Source: Anaerolineales bacterium (lineage in GTDB: Bacteria; Chloroflexota; Anaerolineae; Anaerolineales; UBA4823). Taken from it: a stretch of 64,000 nt of DNA. Shown here piece by piece: positions 29,155-44,376 of this stretch. Every line of letters starts with the position of its first letter. Within the stretch, counting starts at the first letter, position 1. Under the pieces are notes generated by a model. The model was not told the origin of the DNA. It saw only the letters and a list, made by a program, of their open reading frames with translations, and did not search any database. The translations under genes were made by a program, and so were the position numbers. The stretch spans positions 306,357 through 370,356 of the forward strand of contig JANXBJ010000001.1 in the NCBI GenBank assembly GCA_025057645.1. The letters are read 5' to 3'.

Positions 29155-29228
29155 TGCAAAATCCTTTCGATAGGGAGAAGTTTGACTAAAGCAGGCTCTT
29201 TGAGTTGGGAAGGCGGACCGATGGGGAG

Positions 29229-31997
29229 ATGGTAGCAACTTCTGGATGGATTCTCTCGATAATCGGTCAAGGGATAGTGTTCGTTCTGTTGATTCGCTTT
29301 TTGCGGCACTCTCAGCGCAGGGGAGCCTGGTGGGCATTGACAGCTTTGCCGCTGCTGATGATCGTTTTCTGTGCCTATCAAGTTTTCCAATCGGGTAACT
29401 CGCAGCCGGTTGCTGCTTTTTTCATCGCTGCGGCCTCGATGCTTTGTGCGGTTTTGCTCTGGCTTTTGCTTCCCTCGGTCCAAGAAGCCTTAACTCAATA
29501 CGAGCGAACACGTCTTGAGCACGAAGAACTCCGCCTCGTCTTTGAACATTTGCCGAATCCCATCGTTATCAAAGACCTAGACTTGCGCTATCGGATGGCG
29601 AACCCGGCCTTTGCCCAGAGCATCGGCAAGGCGGTTGAGGGGCTAATTGGCCACTCTGATGCGGCTTTCTTTCCACCTAGAATCGCTCAGGTCCTGGAGG
29701 AGGGTGGAAAGTCGGCAGTTGCTACTAAGAGCCCGGCGGTTCGGAAATTAGAGTTGACAACCGTCAAGGGACAGCGGTGGTTTGAAGTGACATTGATCCC
29801 TCTTCTGGACCGGGTGGCCAATGCTCGGGGGATATTGGTTCATGCGCAGGATCTGACCGAAACAGTCAGGACATGCGCACTCTTGGAAGATCAGCTTCGT
29901 TCGGCTCGTCTCTTGCTTCTAGCACTTCAGCGGATGCTTGCATGCCGAGGGGAAGAGGAATTGTGGGATATTTCCACCGAAATCATCGAGGAGATAGGCG
30001 GAACCCCTTATGTGGTTTTGCTTATGGCGTTGGATGAGCCGGAATCCTTTTTGGTGAAGAGTGCTCGGAAGGCGGACTGTTTTAAGATTGGCGAACGAGC
30101 GCGGTTGTCCGGCTTCTTTGGAGGGGATGACTCTAGAGACAAGCTCCAAGTCGGCGAGGCGGATGCAGGTTGGAAAGGCATCTTTAGGAATGGAACAGGT
30201 CAGGGATTAGACCTAGTAGTGAGCGTTGCGATCTTCAAAGAAGACCACATTGAGGGAGTGATTGCTCTGTTCTACGAGCGCTCGGAGGGAGAAAAGATCG
30301 AGCGAGGAAAAGAAATCCTCGCAGACTTGGCTAAGTTCATTGGCATAAAATTGAGTGAGCTGAGTAATAGAGCCCAAATACAATCTCAGCTATCTCAGGT
30401 TCGCGAAGAGCTGGAGCGACACGCTTTGCATCAGCGTCTCGAGCGTTTTCTAGTTGCACTAGCGACTCGGTTGGTGAATGCATCACCCCATCAAATACAA
30501 GGTTTATTGGAAAGGGCGATAGGGAGTTTTGCTGAATATCTCAACGCCCAAAGGAGCTACGTATATCTATTCAAAGAAGGGGGAGGGCTAGTAGCCCAAT
30601 ACCGCTGGGCGGAGGCGGGAAAATTGCTACCCCCAAGTGAAATCCCTGAACCATACGATGAAGCTATGTCTTGGTTGGTTGAAAGGCTCAACCGTCAAGA
30701 GGTGGTTGTCCTCTCGCGCTCCGGCGAGATGAGCGGGCCTTTTCGAGTCTATCTGGAGGCGCAGGACATCGACTCTTGGGTAGCTGTCCCCATGGTCTCG
30801 CAGCGGACTGTGGTTGGCTACTTCGGCCTGGAGGGAAAGGCTGAGACCCATAGATTGATTTATGATCAAATGAGTTTGCTTAAGTCTATGGCAGAGATAG
30901 TGGTTGTAGCCTTGGAAAGGAAACGGAATGCGGAAGAACTGGAAAAGCAGCTAAGAGTCCTAAGCGAAAAGATGACTCACCTCGAATGGCGCAATCAACG
31001 GAACAAACTCTTAGCCGAAATGGGGGATTTGCTGCAATCGTGCAGGACGGCAGATGAAGCTTTCCCGATCGTTTCCCGTTATGCTCAAGCTCTTCTGCCT
31101 CAAAGTGCAGGTTCGCTTTACCTGCTGCGCTCAGTCCGAGACATGGCCGAGAAGGTGGCGTCTTGGGGGAGCGAGGCCAGCGGAGCAAATGAGCTGGCTT
31201 TGAATGAGTGTTGGGGCATCCGGCGGGGGAAGATTCATGTGGTTCACAATGCAAGTGGACCCTTGTGTGATCATTTGGGGTCATCTATCCCTGAACGGTA
31301 TGTTTGTGTTCCGCTAATCGCCCAAGGGGAGACCATTGGGCTATTACATCTTCGCTACGGCGAGAGCGGAGAGCAGAGTGGGCTTGAGGAAATGAGGCAA
31401 ACCGCTATGGCTCTTGCGGATCACGTAGCACCGGCGCTTTCGAACCTGAATCTCAGAGACAAACTACGGAGTCAGGCTATCCGAGACCCCCTAACCGGCC
31501 TTTACAATCGCAGATACATGGAAGAGACTTTGGAGCGTGAGATTCGGCGCGCAGCTCGCCATCAGTACTCTGTGGGATTGATTATGTGTGATATCGACCA
31601 GATGAAACCGATCAACGATCGTTTTGGCCACGATGCAGGCGACGTGGTTCTCCGCCATATTGGGAGCTTGATGAAGAAGATCTTTCGCGGTGAGGATGTT
31701 GCTTGTCGCTATGGCGGTGATGAGTTTATGATCATTTTGCCGGAAGCGTCTCTTTCGGATGTATGGCAGCGAGCCGAGAATTTACGTGAGATGGTTAAGA
31801 GAGCCCGTTTTGAATACGAGGGCAAATTGATCGGCCCGGTGACCCTCTCGATCGGAGTGGCAGCCTATCCTGACCTTGGTTTTACCGTGGAAAGATTAGT
31901 TCAGGCAAGCGATGCGGCCGCCTATTTAGCAAAGCGCGAAGGCGGAGATAGAGTAATGATCGCACGTCAGGCGGAAGACAACAATCAACAAGGCTAA
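29229..31997 (+). CDS. Diguanylate cyclase with membrane, PAS and GAF domains
   Basis: About 922 residues. The N-terminus has about three membrane segments (roughly 5-25, 34-52 and 58-82). A PAS domain follows (about 100-215, with NPIVIKDLDLRYRMANPAF), then three GAF-like regions (about 225-385, 410-570 and 610-745), and a C-terminal GGDEF domain (about 755-915). The active site RYGGDEF is intact near residue 826. RGED, five residues before it, fits an RxxD inhibitory site, so c-di-GMP feedback is likely. There is no EAL domain. The start is uncertain: a TTG at 29205 is in frame, and neither start has ideal Shine-Dalgarno spacing. Confidence 0.9.
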   Translation: MVATSGWILSIIGQGIVFVLLIRFLRHSQRRGAWWALTALPLLMIVFCAYQVFQSGNSQPVAAFFIAAASMLCAVLLWLLLPSVQEALTQYERTRLEHEELRLVFEHLPNPIVIKDLDLRYRMANPAFAQSIGKAVEGLIGHSDAAFFPPRIAQVLEEGGKSAVATKSPAVRKLELTTVKGQRWFEVTLIPLLDRVANARGILVHAQDLTETVRTCALLEDQLRSARLLLLALQRMLACRGEEELWDISTEIIEEIGGTPYVVLLMALDEPESFLVKSARKADCFKIGERARLSGFFGGDDSRDKLQVGEADAGWKGIFRNGTGQGLDLVVSVAIFKEDHIEGVIALFYERSEGEKIERGKEILADLAKFIGIKLSELSNRAQIQSQLSQVREELERHALHQRLERFLVALATRLVNASPHQIQGLLERAIGSFAEYLNAQRSYVYLFKEGGGLVAQYRWAEAGKLLPPSEIPEPYDEAMSWLVERLNRQEVVVLSRSGEMSGPFRVYLEAQDIDSWVAVPMVSQRTVVGYFGLEGKAETHRLIYDQMSLLKSMAEIVVVALERKRNAEELEKQLRVLSEKMTHLEWRNQRNKLLAEMGDLLQSCRTADEAFPIVSRYAQALLPQSAGSLYLLRSVRDMAEKVASWGSEASGANELALNECWGIRRGKIHVVHNASGPLCDHLGSSIPERYVCVPLIAQGETIGLLHLRYGESGEQSGLEEMRQTAMALADHVAPALSNLNLRDKLRSQAIRDPLTGLYNRRYMEETLEREIRRAARHQYSVGLIMCDIDQMKPINDRFGHDAGDVVLRHIGSLMKKIFRGEDVACRYGGDEFMIILPEASLSDVWQRAENLREMVKRARFEYEGKLIGPVTLSIGVAAYPDLGFTVERLVQASDAAAYLAKREGGDRVMIARQAEDNNQQG

Positions 31998-35921: not shown

Positions 35922-35950
35922 TTGACCGACAATAGAATATCAAATACAAT
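35922..35950 (+). promoter_or_regulatory. Sigma70-type promoter of the ABC export operon
   Basis: TTGACC at 35922-35927, a 17-base spacer and TACAAT at 35945-35950. The -10 box overlaps the left end of the 32-bp palindrome, so binding there would block RNA polymerase. The leader to the first ATG (36083) would be about 125 bases. Confidence 0.65.
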
Positions 35951-35977
35951 CCATACCGACCGGTCGGTATGGATTGT
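35946..35977. promoter_or_regulatory. 32-bp perfect palindromic operator, TetR type
   Basis: A perfect palindrome of 16-bp arms centred at 35961/35962, with core ATACCGACCGGTCGGTAT. The ACCGACCGGTCGGT core is known from operators of TetR-family repressors such as AcrR-type efflux regulators. Its overlap with the -10 box and the position ahead of an exporter operon fit repression with relief by the pump's substrate. No TetR-family gene is present in the window. Confidence 0.75.
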
Positions 35978-36082
35978 TAGGTTTGAGGGCAGCTTGATTA
36001 AGCATCGCTCCAAGGCTAAATTAACCATCTTCTTACGAGCGCTCTCGAATTATCGGGTAAGATTGGGGAGTGCTCGGCAAGC

Positions 36083-36889
36083 ATGAATCAAAAGGAAGCG
36101 AGGTCGGAGTCGTCAATGTCTTTTCATCGCCGAAGAAGCCAGCCGCCTCAGGGGGAAGAAGTTCTCAATGAACTCTCCCAGGTATCCTTACCTTCGGCGC
36201 GCAGCGCGCAAACCACACCTCCGCTGCTGCAAGCACGCAACCTCTGGAAAGTGTATGATACACCCAGTGGCGGTGTGATTGCTCTAAAAGGTGTCAACCT
36301 TTCCATCGCTGAAGCGGAATTTGTTATCGTTTTCGGAAAATCGGGTGCAGGTAAGTCCACTCTGGTTAATTTGCTGACCGCAATTGATGAACCTACGCAA
36401 GGTCAGTTGTTCTTTCGGGGTATCTCGGTTTTTGACCTCACCGAAGAAGAGCGAACCCGCTGGCGAGGGAAAAATCTAGGGGTGGTCTTCCAATTCTTCC
36501 AATTGTTTCCAACCCTGAGCCTTTGGGAAAATGTCAAGATCAGCATGGACTTGTTAGGGGAAATTCCACCTCGAGAGCGCAAGGAGAGGGCTTTGGATTT
36601 GTTGCGTCAAGTGGGCCTAGAAGAGCATGCTCGAAAGGTTCCGGCGAAGATCTCAGGAGGACAACAACAGCGTGTGGCCATCGCCCGAGCCTTGGCGAAT
36701 GATCCCCCTCTTTTGATCGCAGACGAGCCGACCGGGAATCTCGACTCGCGCACAAAAGAGGAGATCATGGCTCTGTTTGCCTCTCTGGTGGCAAGAGGGA
36801 AAACGGTCTTTATGGTGACTCATGATCTGGGGGCAACTAAGTGGGCAACCCGAGTGGTTGAGATTTACGATGGAGAGATCATTGGATGA
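36083..36889 (+). CDS. ABC transporter ATP-binding protein (MacB/LolD type), first ATPase
   Basis: A 268-residue nucleotide-binding subunit. Walker A is [10 protein letters not shown]-loop [13 protein letters not shown], signature ISGGQQQR, Walker [15 protein letters not shown]-loop MVTHD: all intact. About 45 extra, charged residues precede the usual start ([12 protein letters not shown]). It overlaps the next permease gene by four bases (ATGA), so translation is coupled. A second ATPase follows the permease. Likely function is export of a hydrophobic molecule or lipoprotein-like substrate; the substrate is unknown. Confidence 0.93.
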
Positions 36890-39300
36890 ACATCGACGCA
36901 AGGTGGATTAAGGTTTGGCGTGACCTGTGGAGCAATAAAACCCGTTCGCTCCTCGTAGTCCTCTCGATTGCTGTAGGGGTTGGGGCTGTGGGAATGATTT
37001 ACAATGCCTCGCAATTGATTCAACGTGATCTTTACGGCCAGTTTAGGCAAGGTAATCCGGCCCATGTTTATCTTTACCTATCCCCCTTTCCGAAAGAGGT
37101 GGCGAACGTTGTCAGAGGGATGCGTGAGATAAGAGACGCTCAGGTACGGCGAGTCGTTCGGGCAGAAATTGGAAAGTCTGGAGGAGGGTTCGTAAATCTG
37201 AATCTCCACGTGCTGCCTAGCACCTCTGAGGTGGAAGTAGGTCGGTTTTTTGTGGAGCAGGGCGCATTTCCGCCAAAAGTTCGGGAGATTCTCCTCGAGC
37301 GACAGTCGGCCCGCTTGCTGGGTTATCGGATTGGGGACTCGGTGCCGATTAAGCTTGCAGATGGACGCGAGTATTCTCTAAGGTTCTCGGGGATTGTCCA
37401 CGATCTCAATGAGATTCCTTTTGCAATCTTGGGGGATGCAACTGCCTATGTAAGTGTGGATACCTTGCGCTGGATGGGAGAGTTGCCGGCTTATAATCGT
37501 TTGGAGTTAGTTCTCGAGCTGCAAGGGGAGAGAGTATCGAAAGAGACTGCTCTTGAAGCAGCCGAGGAAGTCAAAAAACGCGTTTTGGAGCCTTCGGGAT
37601 TTCGATTGTATAGCGTCCGAGTTCCAGGAGTCGGCTCGGAGCCCGGTGATCACTGGGCTCACAACCAGATCCGCGGTTTTATTCTGATTCTTCAAATCAT
37701 GAGCGTCATGGCAACACTGCTTAGCGGCGGCTTAATTGTCAACACTATTTCTTCGATTCTGGTCCAACAGACGAAGCAGATCGGGATTCTGCGCGCCATC
37801 GGCGCTTCAAGAAAGCAGATTGTAAGTATGTACCTCTTATGCGTGTTGATTTTTGCTGCAGCTGGCCTAGCCCTAGCAATTCCCCTCGGTTGGGCAGGAA
37901 GTTGGTGGCTGGCAAGCTTTGCCGCTCGATTCTTGAACTTCGATTTGACGCAGGTGAGTCTCAGCTTCGAAGTAATCCTTATCCAAGCCGGGATAGCAAT
38001 CCTCATGCCGCTTGGTGTAGCGATCTTCCCAATTCTCCGGGGGGCGCGGATTTCTGTTTACGAGGCCATTTATCAACATGGCCTGAGCCGAGGCAGAGTG
38101 AGTCGTTTGGAGCAATTGCTTAGCCGGATTCGCTTGGCTGACCCCCCATTGCTTCTTTCGATCCGGAATACCTTTCGGCGGAAGGCACGCCTGGTCTTCA
38201 CCTTGAGCACCTTAACCCTTGCTGGGGCGATGTTTATTGCCTCCTTCAGTACGCATTCTTCTCTGGTCGCTCAGATTCACGATGCAGAACGATATGTAGC
38301 CTTTGATGCTCGTCTACCTTTGCCACAAGGGACAAGCAAAATTGCTGCCGAGAGAGAGGCGCTTAGAGTTGAGGGAGTGAGCTACGCAGAGGGTTGGGCA
38401 ATCAGTGAAGGAGTGATCGTCCGTTCCGACAGCAGTGAGAGTCAGGGCATCGAAATCGTTGGGTTACCTGCTAATAGCAAGACAATTCGTCCGAAATTGG
38501 TCTCGGGCAGGTGGTTATCCGGCGATCCGAATTCTCGGCAGGTCGTGGTCAACGAAGATTTGCTGGTCGAAGAACCGGAAATCCGAGTTGGCGAGCCTCT
38601 GCGGGTCAAAGTTGGAAACCGAACGCACACTTTTGTCGTGGTCGGTGTGGTTTCGAAACATATTTTTGGTCCGCGCATTTATATGGACTATACTTCACTA
38701 TCTCGTTTGACTGGCCGCCAGAATGAGGTCGATGAAATTCGTGTTCTTGCCGAGGAAGGGAAATTAAGCAGTGTAACAGTCCAAGATAGCCTGGCCGAGA
38801 AACTTGAGGAGCGCTTTCGCAATGCCGGAATCAGCCGTGCCAATGCAATAACCCGCTCCCACTTCTTGGGCGAATTTGCCGGGGTGTTTAATATTATTTT
38901 ATTGATTTTGCTGATTATGGCTGGTTTACTCGCAATCGTTGGCGGTCTGGGGCTGAGCGGGGCTCTGGGGATCAACATTATGGAAAGAATGCGCGAGATT
39001 GGCGTTCTTAGAGCAGTAGGAGCTGCTAATCGAGCCTTGGTAAAGATTATCTTGGCCGAGAGCCTTGTAGTCAGCTTGGTAAGTTGGGTAATGGGAGCAA
39101 TTACCTCGGCGGTCTCCAGTCCTGTTTTAGCTGCTGTAGTGGTGTATGCGGTTTTAGAGACCCAAATGAACTTCCGTTACTCAGTCGTAGGTCTGTTCCT
39201 TTGGTTTGGGGTAATTCTGATGATCGGCGCCTTATCGAGCTTGCTGCCTGCGCGGAGAGCAGCTTCACTCCAAGTCCGTGAGGTTCTCGAGTACGAGTAA
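36886..39300 (+). CDS. FtsX-family ABC permease with two FtsX units
   Basis: An 804-residue permease with eight predicted membrane segments: one near the N-terminus (about 20-40), three in the first FtsX block (about 265-400), one near 430-450, and three in the last block (about 665-800). Large extracytoplasmic domains lie at about 45-260 and 460-660, of the MacB periplasmic-core kind. The repeated RExGILRAIGA-type coupling motif appears twice (IGILRAIGASRKQ and REIGVLRAVGAANRA), so one polypeptide carries two ATPase docking sites. It is flanked by two different ATPase genes. Confidence 0.93.
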   Translation: MNIDARWIKVWRDLWSNKTRSLLVVLSIAVGVGAVGMIYNASQLIQRDLYGQFRQGNPAHVYLYLSPFPKEVANVVRGMREIRDAQVRRVVRAEIGKSGGGFVNLNLHVLPSTSEVEVGRFFVEQGAFPPKVREILLERQSARLLGYRIGDSVPIKLADGREYSLRFSGIVHDLNEIPFAILGDATAYVSVDTLRWMGELPAYNRLELVLELQGERVSKETALEAAEEVKKRVLEPSGFRLYSVRVPGVGSEPGDHWAHNQIRGFILILQIMSVMATLLSGGLIVNTISSILVQQTKQIGILRAIGASRKQIVSMYLLCVLIFAAAGLALAIPLGWAGSWWLASFAARFLNFDLTQVSLSFEVILIQAGIAILMPLGVAIFPILRGARISVYEAIYQHGLSRGRVSRLEQLLSRIRLADPPLLLSIRNTFRRKARLVFTLSTLTLAGAMFIASFSTHSSLVAQIHDAERYVAFDARLPLPQGTSKIAAEREALRVEGVSYAEGWAISEGVIVRSDSSESQGIEIVGLPANSKTIRPKLVSGRWLSGDPNSRQVVVNEDLLVEEPEIRVGEPLRVKVGNRTHTFVVVGVVSKHIFGPRIYMDYTSLSRLTGRQNEVDEIRVLAEEGKLSSVTVQDSLAEKLEERFRNAGISRANAITRSHFLGEFAGVFNIILLILLIMAGLLAIVGGLGLSGALGINIMERMREIGVLRAVGAANRALVKIILAESLVVSLVSWVMGAITSAVSSPVLAAVVVYAVLETQMNFRYSVVGLFLWFGVILMIGALSSLLPARRAASLQVREVLEYE

Positions 39301-39318
39301 GTTGTGATAGGAGGAAGG

Positions 39319-40041
39319 ATGCTAGGCGGCTTAGCGCAATCAAACGCCTGTGCTTGTGCTTCAGAGTCTTCCTTGATCTCTCTCAATGGGGTGAGCAAAA
39401 TTTATCATACAGATGCCGGCCGTTTCGTGGCCTTGGATAACGTCAACCTTCAAATTCAACGCGGCGAGTTTGTGGCGATTGTCGGGAAGTCCGGAAGTGG
39501 AAAAACAACGCTTATCAACCTCATAACGGGGATCGATCGGCCTACCAAAGGAGAAGTGTGCGTTGATCAGGTTGCAGTTCATCGGTTGAAGGAAAGCGAG
39601 AAGGCCCTGTGGAGAGGAGTGACAATCGGGGTAGTGTTCCAATTTTTTCAGCTTTTGCCGACCCTGACTGTGATCGAGAATGTCATGCTGCCGATGTGTC
39701 TGTGCAATCTCTATTCCGGGAGCGAACGGCTCGAGCGCGCCTATCAGTTGCTTCGGCTTGTGCAGATGGAACATCAGGCGCATAAGTTGCCCTCGTTTCT
39801 TTCGGGCGGTGAACAACAGCGGGTGGCGATTGCGCGCGCTCTAGCTAATGATCCCCCAATTGTTGCGACGGATGAGCCCACCGGCAATCTTGACAGCCGT
39901 ACTGCGGCCAGCATCATGGAATTATTTGAGGACCTCGTTCGAAATGGTAAAACGCTCTTGATGGTCACCCACGATCCTGATCTGGCTGCTCGTGCTCAAA
40001 GGACGATCGCCTTGGCTGACGGACGGATTATCCAAGCTTAG
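39319..40041 (+). CDS. ABC transporter ATP-binding protein, second ATPase
   Basis: A 240-residue MacB/LolD-type ATPase. Walker [11 protein letters not shown]-loop [13 protein letters not shown], signature LSGGEQQR, Walker [14 protein letters not shown] and H-loop MVTHD are intact. A GTG at 39304 is also in frame, but AGGAGGA lies just before the ATG at 39319. It is about 19 bases after the permease stop. The protein is similar to, but clearly not a copy of, the first ATPase, so the two could pair as a heterodimer on the double permease. Confidence 0.93.
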
Positions 40042-43005: not shown

Positions 43006-44376
43006 GTGGATGCAAGGCGACTAATCCCTTCGGTCGAAAGAGTCCTTCAGCTCGAAGCAGTAAAGAGTTTCTCGCAAGTCTATGGACGGCGGTTGACGGT
43101 TGAGGCTGCTCGGCAGGCTCTGGAGCAAGTCCGCCAAATTATTGTGCAGACGGGAAGAATCCTTGAGGAGGAAGAAATTCTCCAGAGAATTGAGCGGCAT
43201 TTACATACAGTCACTACTGCCTCTCTGCTTCCGGTGATCAATGCCACAGGCGTTGTTCTACATACCAATCTGGGGCGGGCACCTCTCAGCGAAGAGGCTA
43301 TGGCAGCTGCTTCTCAAGTTGCTTGTCGCTACTCGAACCTTGAGTTCGACTTGGAGCAGGGAAAAAGAGGGAGTCGCCTGATCCATGCCGAGAAGTTGCT
43401 TTGCCAGTTGATACGTGCTGAGGCGGCTTTAGTGGTGAATAATAATGCTGCGGCTGTCCTCCTGTCGCTAGCGGCTTTGGCGAATCGACGGAAGGTGGTG
43501 ATTGCCCGTTCGCAATTGGTTGAGATCGGGGGCGGCTTTCGGATTCCCGATGTGATGCGGCAGTCGGGGGCGAGATTGCTCGAGATCGGGACCACCAATC
43601 GGGTGAACTTAGAAGATTACCGCTCAACCCTAGAGCAAAAGCCGGCTTTGTTTTTGGTTGCCCATCGCTCCAATTTCAAAATTCTCGGTTTCACCGCAGA
43701 GCCGCAAGTGGCAGAGATTGCGCACGTTGCCCATGAGAGCGGCATTCCTCTGATGGTTGATCTCGGTTCAGGAGCACTTCTGGATACAGCCGAATTTGGT
43801 TTAGCCCATGAGCCAACCGTTCAAGAGATGATCGAATCAGGGGCAGACCTAGTCTGTTTTTCTGGGGATAAATTGATGGGTGGGCCTCAGGCCGGCATCG
43901 TTGTGGGCAAGAGAGCACTGATCGAAAAGCTCCGCCGTCACCCGCTCGCTCGAGCGGTGCGCGCAGATAAGCTCGCCCTTGCCGCTTTGTCTGCAACTCT
44001 TCTCCACTACTTGAAGGAGGAGGCGACGCAGAAGATTCCTATCTGGAAGATGATTTCGCTGCCTGTAGACGAAATTTATCGTCGGGCTTGGGCGTGGACA
44101 GAAAAATTGTCCCAACTCGGTATAAAAGCCTCTGTGATTGAAGGAACGAGCACGATTGGAGGGGGAAGTTTGCCCGGCGAAACGTTGCCTACGCACTTGC
44201 TGGCTATCCGGACCAAGCAGCCGCAACTGTTTCTTAGAAAACTGCGCGAGAACTCGCCGCCGATCATTGCTCGAATTGAGCAGAACCTTGTGGCCTTCGA
44301 TCCAAGGACGGTTTTAGCAGACGAAGAAGCTCCCTTGTTAGCCGCGATCGAGTCCTTGAGGGAATTCATTCTATGA
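43006..44376 (+). CDS. selA: L-seryl-tRNA(Sec) selenium transferase
   Basis: A 456-residue PLP enzyme that converts Ser-tRNA(Sec) to Sec-tRNA(Sec) with selenophosphate. The Schiff-base lysine is Lys289 in CFSGDKLMGGPQAG. The N-terminal VINATGVVLHTNLGRAPL, YSNLEFDLEQGKRGSR and NNNAAAVLL are SelA signatures. The start is GTG at 43006. It overlaps the following M24 peptidase by four bases. No selB, selC or selD was seen in the window, so its partners must lie elsewhere; a repurposed SelA-like enzyme is a less likely alternative. Confidence 0.93.
   Translation: MDARRLIPSVERVLQLEAVKSFSQVYGRRLTVEAARQALEQVRQIIVQTGRILEEEEILQRIERHLHTVTTASLLPVINATGVVLHTNLGRAPLSEEAMAAASQVACRYSNLEFDLEQGKRGSRLIHAEKLLCQLIRAEAALVVNNNAAAVLLSLAALANRRKVVIARSQLVEIGGGFRIPDVMRQSGARLLEIGTTNRVNLEDYRSTLEQKPALFLVAHRSNFKILGFTAEPQVAEIAHVAHESGIPLMVDLGSGALLDTAEFGLAHEPTVQEMIESGADLVCFSGDKLMGGPQAGIVVGKRALIEKLRRHPLARAVRADKLALAALSATLLHYLKEEATQKIPIWKMISLPVDEIYRRAWAWTEKLSQLGIKASVIEGTSTIGGGSLPGETLPTHLLAIRTKQPQLFLRKLRENSPPIIARIEQNLVAFDPRTVLADEEAPLLAAIESLREFIL

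Follow-up and report, generated by a model that had tools for sequence, protein, structure and literature searches.

The published sites that we found to share the core of the operator described here belong to two TetR-type regulators of catabolism. In the paaA promoter of Burkholderia cenocepacia, an inverted repeat corresponding to the 14-bp core ACCGACCGGTCGGT is necessary for negative control, which depends on a TetR-type repressor (PMC2770484), and in Thermus thermophilus HB8 the TetR protein TTHB023 (PfmR) has sites reading TACCGACCGNTNGGTN and an operon with acyl-CoA dehydrogenase genes (PMC7022988). As the first-pass annotation of the DNA had linked this core to efflux regulators, its functional attribution is not borne out by these precedents. 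Also relevant are the γ-butyrolactone receptors CprB and ScbR of Streptomyces (PMC4150764) and the Type VII ABC system YbbAP-TesA (PMC12646458).

The window, i.e. the whole 64 kb stretch of Anaerolineales DNA that we analysed, compares with these systems as follows. The 14-bp core of the PaaR operator is identical to that of the window and likewise lies in a promoter, but PaaR controls phenylacetic acid degradation genes and its site is located between the -35 and -10 elements. TTHB023 belongs with the CTACCGA subtype of operators, and its target genes differ from those of the window. CprB is among the solved relatives of TetR-II, one of two TetR proteins encoded in the genome, although the site in its crystal, ACATACGGGACGCCCCGTTTAT, is semi-palindromic and differs from the window's operator (PMC4150764). 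The transporter of the window resembles YbbAP-TesA (PMC12646458) in having LolD-like ATPases and a single fused permease (approximately 800 aa here) that contains an internal repeat, but two different ATPase genes flank this permease and the operon has no thioesterase gene. A literature search for TetR regulons that include ABC transporters in Anaerolineae found nothing.

The palindrome and the transporter operon

The perfect 32-bp palindrome reported in the first-pass annotation was found at exactly the position listed in Table 1, and it does overlap the TACAAT of a TTGACC-17-TACAAT promoter, in which both hexamers and the 17 bp spacer are present and 10 of the 12 consensus bases are matched. 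No other perfect palindrome of at least 16 bp is present in the 64 kb window, where approximately 1.4e-5 perfect palindromes of 32 bp would be expected by chance, and the -10 box that it overlaps belongs to the promoter of an ABC-transporter operon. The window's genome has a single exact copy of the 14-bp core.

Table 1. Features of the transporter locus and the two TetR genes of the genome
Feature	Position	Strand	Remarks
Perfect palindrome ACAATCCATACCGACCGGTCGGTATGGATTGT, 32 bp	35946-35977	.	No other perfect palindrome of ≥16 bp in the window
Conserved operator core ATACCGACCGGTCGGTAT, TetR-II subtype	35953-35970	.	Kept in the genus (6 genomes) and at TetR-II promoters of other genera
-35-like hexamer TTGACC	35922-35927	+	Not conserved in congeners
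-10 hexamer TACAAT	35945-35950	+	Overlaps palindrome; TATAAT in congeners
Second conserved leader block AAATTAACCATCTTCTTACGAGCGC..ATTATCGGGTAAGATT	36018-36065	+	Alignment of six congeners
ABC ATPase, operon gene 1	36083-36889	+	PF00005, 122.7 bits; LolD-like
804-aa permease, FtsX and MacB_PCD domains	36886-39300	+	PF02687 and PF12704, two stretches each
ABC ATPase, second	39304-40041	+	PF00005, 124 bits
TetR-I	contig C33		198 aa; TetR_C_24 domain
TetR-II	contig C60, L006:4715-5326	-	203 aa; TetR family

An FtsX-type permease with MacB_PCD domains is encoded together with ABC ATPases in one operon, which places the system among the Type VII ABC transporters (MacB/LolCDE/FtsEX/YbbAP), and relatives of MacB are found among the solved structures. 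The two FtsX halves are fused in the permease, whose gene is flanked by two different ATPase genes (36083-40041), and the Walker A and signature motifs of both ATPases look intact. A glycerol-3-phosphate dehydrogenase gene is located upstream of the operon. In three congeners a gene for a 284-aa protein lies 3' of the second ATPase gene (L162:11329-12183, L163:10736-11590 and L164:9762-10616), and the one of these that was scanned gave a weak match to PilZ; the window has no room for this gene between the second ATPase gene and the malic enzyme-phosphotransacetylase gene. Elsewhere the window encodes a 930-aa protein with PAS, GAF and GGDEF domains (29205-31997) and SelA, the selenocysteine synthase (43006-44376), and selenoproteins may thus be present. 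The leader block between promoter and operon contains the inverted arms TTCTTAC and GTAAGAT and may represent a further promoter or a site for a regulator.

The transporter operon carries the site on a TATAAT-like box in each of the six genomes of the genus, with the -35 region not conserved. Genus-wide conservation is limited to the inner 18 bp, ATACCGACYRGTCGGTAT, with one mismatch in G002. The outer arms of the transporter site are mostly symmetric in the genus and variable in sequence, and across eight genus sites the symmetry within sites exceeded that between sites (43/56, P = 0.0009). Such maintenance of symmetry and not of sequence would suit a hairpin or terminator rather than a protein-binding site, as would the ability of the palindrome to form a 14-pair hairpin and a pattern scan in which it appeared terminator-like on the minus strand. 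However, no T run lies 3' of the palindrome on the plus strand, the core is conserved in sequence, beyond symmetry alone, and equals the operator at TetR-II promoters, and the core is retained in G005 and G001, where the arms have almost lost their symmetry. On the missing plus-strand T run and the conserved core sequence we rejected the hairpin or terminator, which we consider extremely improbable. The palindrome is very probably a TetR-family operator on the promoter of the ABC-transporter operon, and comparison with the TetR-II promoter sites of relatives supports the operator type to which the first-pass annotation had assigned it.

Arm symmetry without sequence conservation was seen at 35946-35977 and in the operators of loci L148, L149, L164 and L167. 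We considered a structural role of the outer arms and set it aside: at half-positions 13-16 of 88 TetR-II sites from other genera, symmetry within sites was barely above that between sites (0.45 compared with 0.41), and only in the eight genus sites was the difference clear. The symmetric arms in the genus may stem from correction of near-palindromes by template switching, from mirrored -10 boxes or from a second dimer.

The two TetR genes and their operator subtypes

The genome bin searched for TetR_N genes is 95.75% complete and comprises 63 contigs; because of this degree of completeness, a further TetR gene could possibly be missing from it. Two such genes were found, encoding TetR-I and TetR-II, and neither is near the palindrome, in agreement with the earlier statement that the ABC operon has no TetR gene nearby. 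Downstream of the TetR-I gene, its operon (L005:1658-5702) encodes an MBL-fold hydrolase and two acyl-CoA dehydrogenases, and TACCGAACGGTCGGTA stands directly upstream of the TetR-I start; a self-operator of this operon is kept in many genera. The nearest solved structure to TetR-I is the TetR-family structure 3vpr, which we take to be the Thermus protein PfmR (TTHB023); if so, TTHB023 is closest to TetR-I and not to TetR-II.

The TetR-II gene is divergent from two genes, the congener counterparts of which encode an MscS-type channel and a patatin-like protein. Its predicted structure is a confident TetR fold (mean pLDDT 89.8) and its recognition helix matches that of its relatives. A fold search of the PDB with TetR-II gave generic TetR matches that did not tell the ligand class, and its best NCBIfam match, the ScbR family, scored 81.8 bits, below the cut-off of 150, so that TetR-II is not counted as a member of this family.

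In relatives, the orthologues of TetR-I have CTACCGAMCGKTCGGTAG at their own promoters and those of TetR-II have ACCGACYRGTCGGT (ACCGAC-YR-GTCGGT), flanked by A, not C, at position -9. Among the 79 TetR-II loci of a named genome collection with complete upstream DNA, 76 have their own site no more than 160 bp upstream, against a rough chance rate of 0.7%. The records of these loci are mostly titled Anaerolineae or Chloroflexi, with some Spirochaetes, and the closest come from uncultured Anaerolineales/Anaerolineae. The ACCGAC..GTCGGT core alone is also present at more distant TetR genes, and the flank therefore matters. We built two profiles, from the own sites of TetR-I and of TetR-II respectively, with the latter trained on other genera. 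These profiles separate the two kinds of site, and base -9 is A in 96% of TetR-II sites and C in 98% of TetR-I sites.

A role for TetR-I as the cognate repressor, with the transporter in an acyl-CoA-type regulon together with the MBL-fold hydrolase and the two acyl-CoA dehydrogenases, was favoured at first, as the sole one-mismatch copy of the 14-bp core in the genome is at the promoter of the TetR-I gene. Furthermore, the TetR-I profile still gives the window's site 22.5 bits, and TTHB023, the type of protein that TetR-I resembles, tolerates several single changes with a modest loss of affinity (PMC7022988). However, the own sites of TetR-I carry C at -9 and either A or C at -2, whereas each of the six transporter sites in the genus carries A at -9 and C at -2, which is the TetR-II subtype, and base -1 varies among them as it does among TetR-II sites. 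The TetR-I profile gives the congener sites no more than 11 to 18.5 bits, and a TetR-I orthologue is present in many genomes that lack an 18-bp site of the transporter kind. TetR-I as sole regulator, which we now think unlikely, was set aside on base -9 and the pattern of variation.

The margin of the TetR-II profile over the TetR-I profile was 12.6 to 16.4 bits for the congener sites and 7.2 bits for that of the window's genome, which is below 10.1, the lowest margin among TetR-II own sites left out in turn, and TetR-I may therefore also bind there. The transporter would integrate two signals if both proteins bound the site, as the core common to both families and the good scores of the window's site under both profiles would allow; yet the low TetR-I scores of the congener sites would make such shared control special to the window's species, and we consider it less probable still than control by TetR-I.

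TetR-II of contig C60 is the likely candidate for the repressor that the first-pass annotation had placed elsewhere in the genome. The suggestion of that annotation that a TetR gene would carry the site at its own promoter holds, though not in the way foreseen: the near-copy at the TetR-I promoter belongs to the other operator subtype, and the better-matching TetR-II has no recognisable own operator in the window's genome (G000), an imperfect one in congeners and an intact one in relatives.

Conservation and history of the operator

In most relatives, TetR-II would act as a local repressor of its own gene and of a neighbouring gene for an HpnA/SdmB-like NAD epimerase. The two genes adjoin in 14 other genera (with epimerases 50-58% identical), and the epimerase gene is adjacent to that of TetR-II in 48 of 80 loci in the named genome collection. 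In the window's genus, G004 and G005 have the epimerase gene alone, with a long perfect operator of the TetR-II kind, and no close relative of the epimerase was found in the window's genome, in G002 and G003 or in the incomplete G001. Exact 18-bp sites number ten in 38 genomes of the family, i.e. five at the transporter, two at the epimerase and three at TetR-II promoters.

Among transporter loci of other genera, the nearest nine (47-63% identical) showed no site, with contig ends too close for certainty in G026, G012 and perhaps G029, and the same nine genomes gave no TetR-II orthologue. G001 has the transporter site and TetR-II was not found in this genome, which is 67% complete. The co-occurrence of the transporter site and TetR-II may reflect a single event. 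On these comparisons, the simplest reading would be that the TetR-II-epimerase pair broke up, the transporter operon of the genus ancestor gained the operator and the enzyme later disappeared from some species.

Proposed control by TetR-II and its significance

Given the operator subtype, we think it likely that the palindrome is the operator of TetR-II, which would repress the ATPase-permease-ATPase operon in trans and be released by a ligand. A TetR-II dimer on the operator core would cover the -10 box together with the probable start of transcription, and we infer that repression by the bound protein would end when a small-molecule ligand releases it from the promoter. With the pair dispersed in the window's genus and the transporter operon bearing the operator, and with the epimerase gone from the window's genome, the transporter would be the only clear TetR-II target left there.

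The epimerase family and the type of transporter may hint at a hydrophobic compound as the ligand, which we take as no more than a lead. A fuller history, which we advance only as speculation and think rather doubtful as a whole, would have TetR-II, once local beside the epimerase gene, freed by the break-up of the pair and rewired in one genus to the Type VII ABC transporter, with the enzyme then lost in some species and with repressor ligand, enzyme product and transporter substrate all drawn from one class of compounds, perhaps isoprenoids or other lipid-like molecules.

We regard the palindrome on the transporter promoter as gene regulation of an ordinary kind; what makes its history interesting is the apparent loss of the gene that was originally the partner of the repressor. 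A trans-acting TetR repressor is here assigned, from sequence alone, to a transporter operon of an uncultured Anaerolineae-related lineage, and the steps of the proposed rewiring can be read in relatives: other genera keep the pair, two species have the enzyme by itself with its operator, and the others have only the transporter site. By tying the epimerase family to a Type VII ABC transporter, the shared operator provides a lead to the substrate of this transporter.
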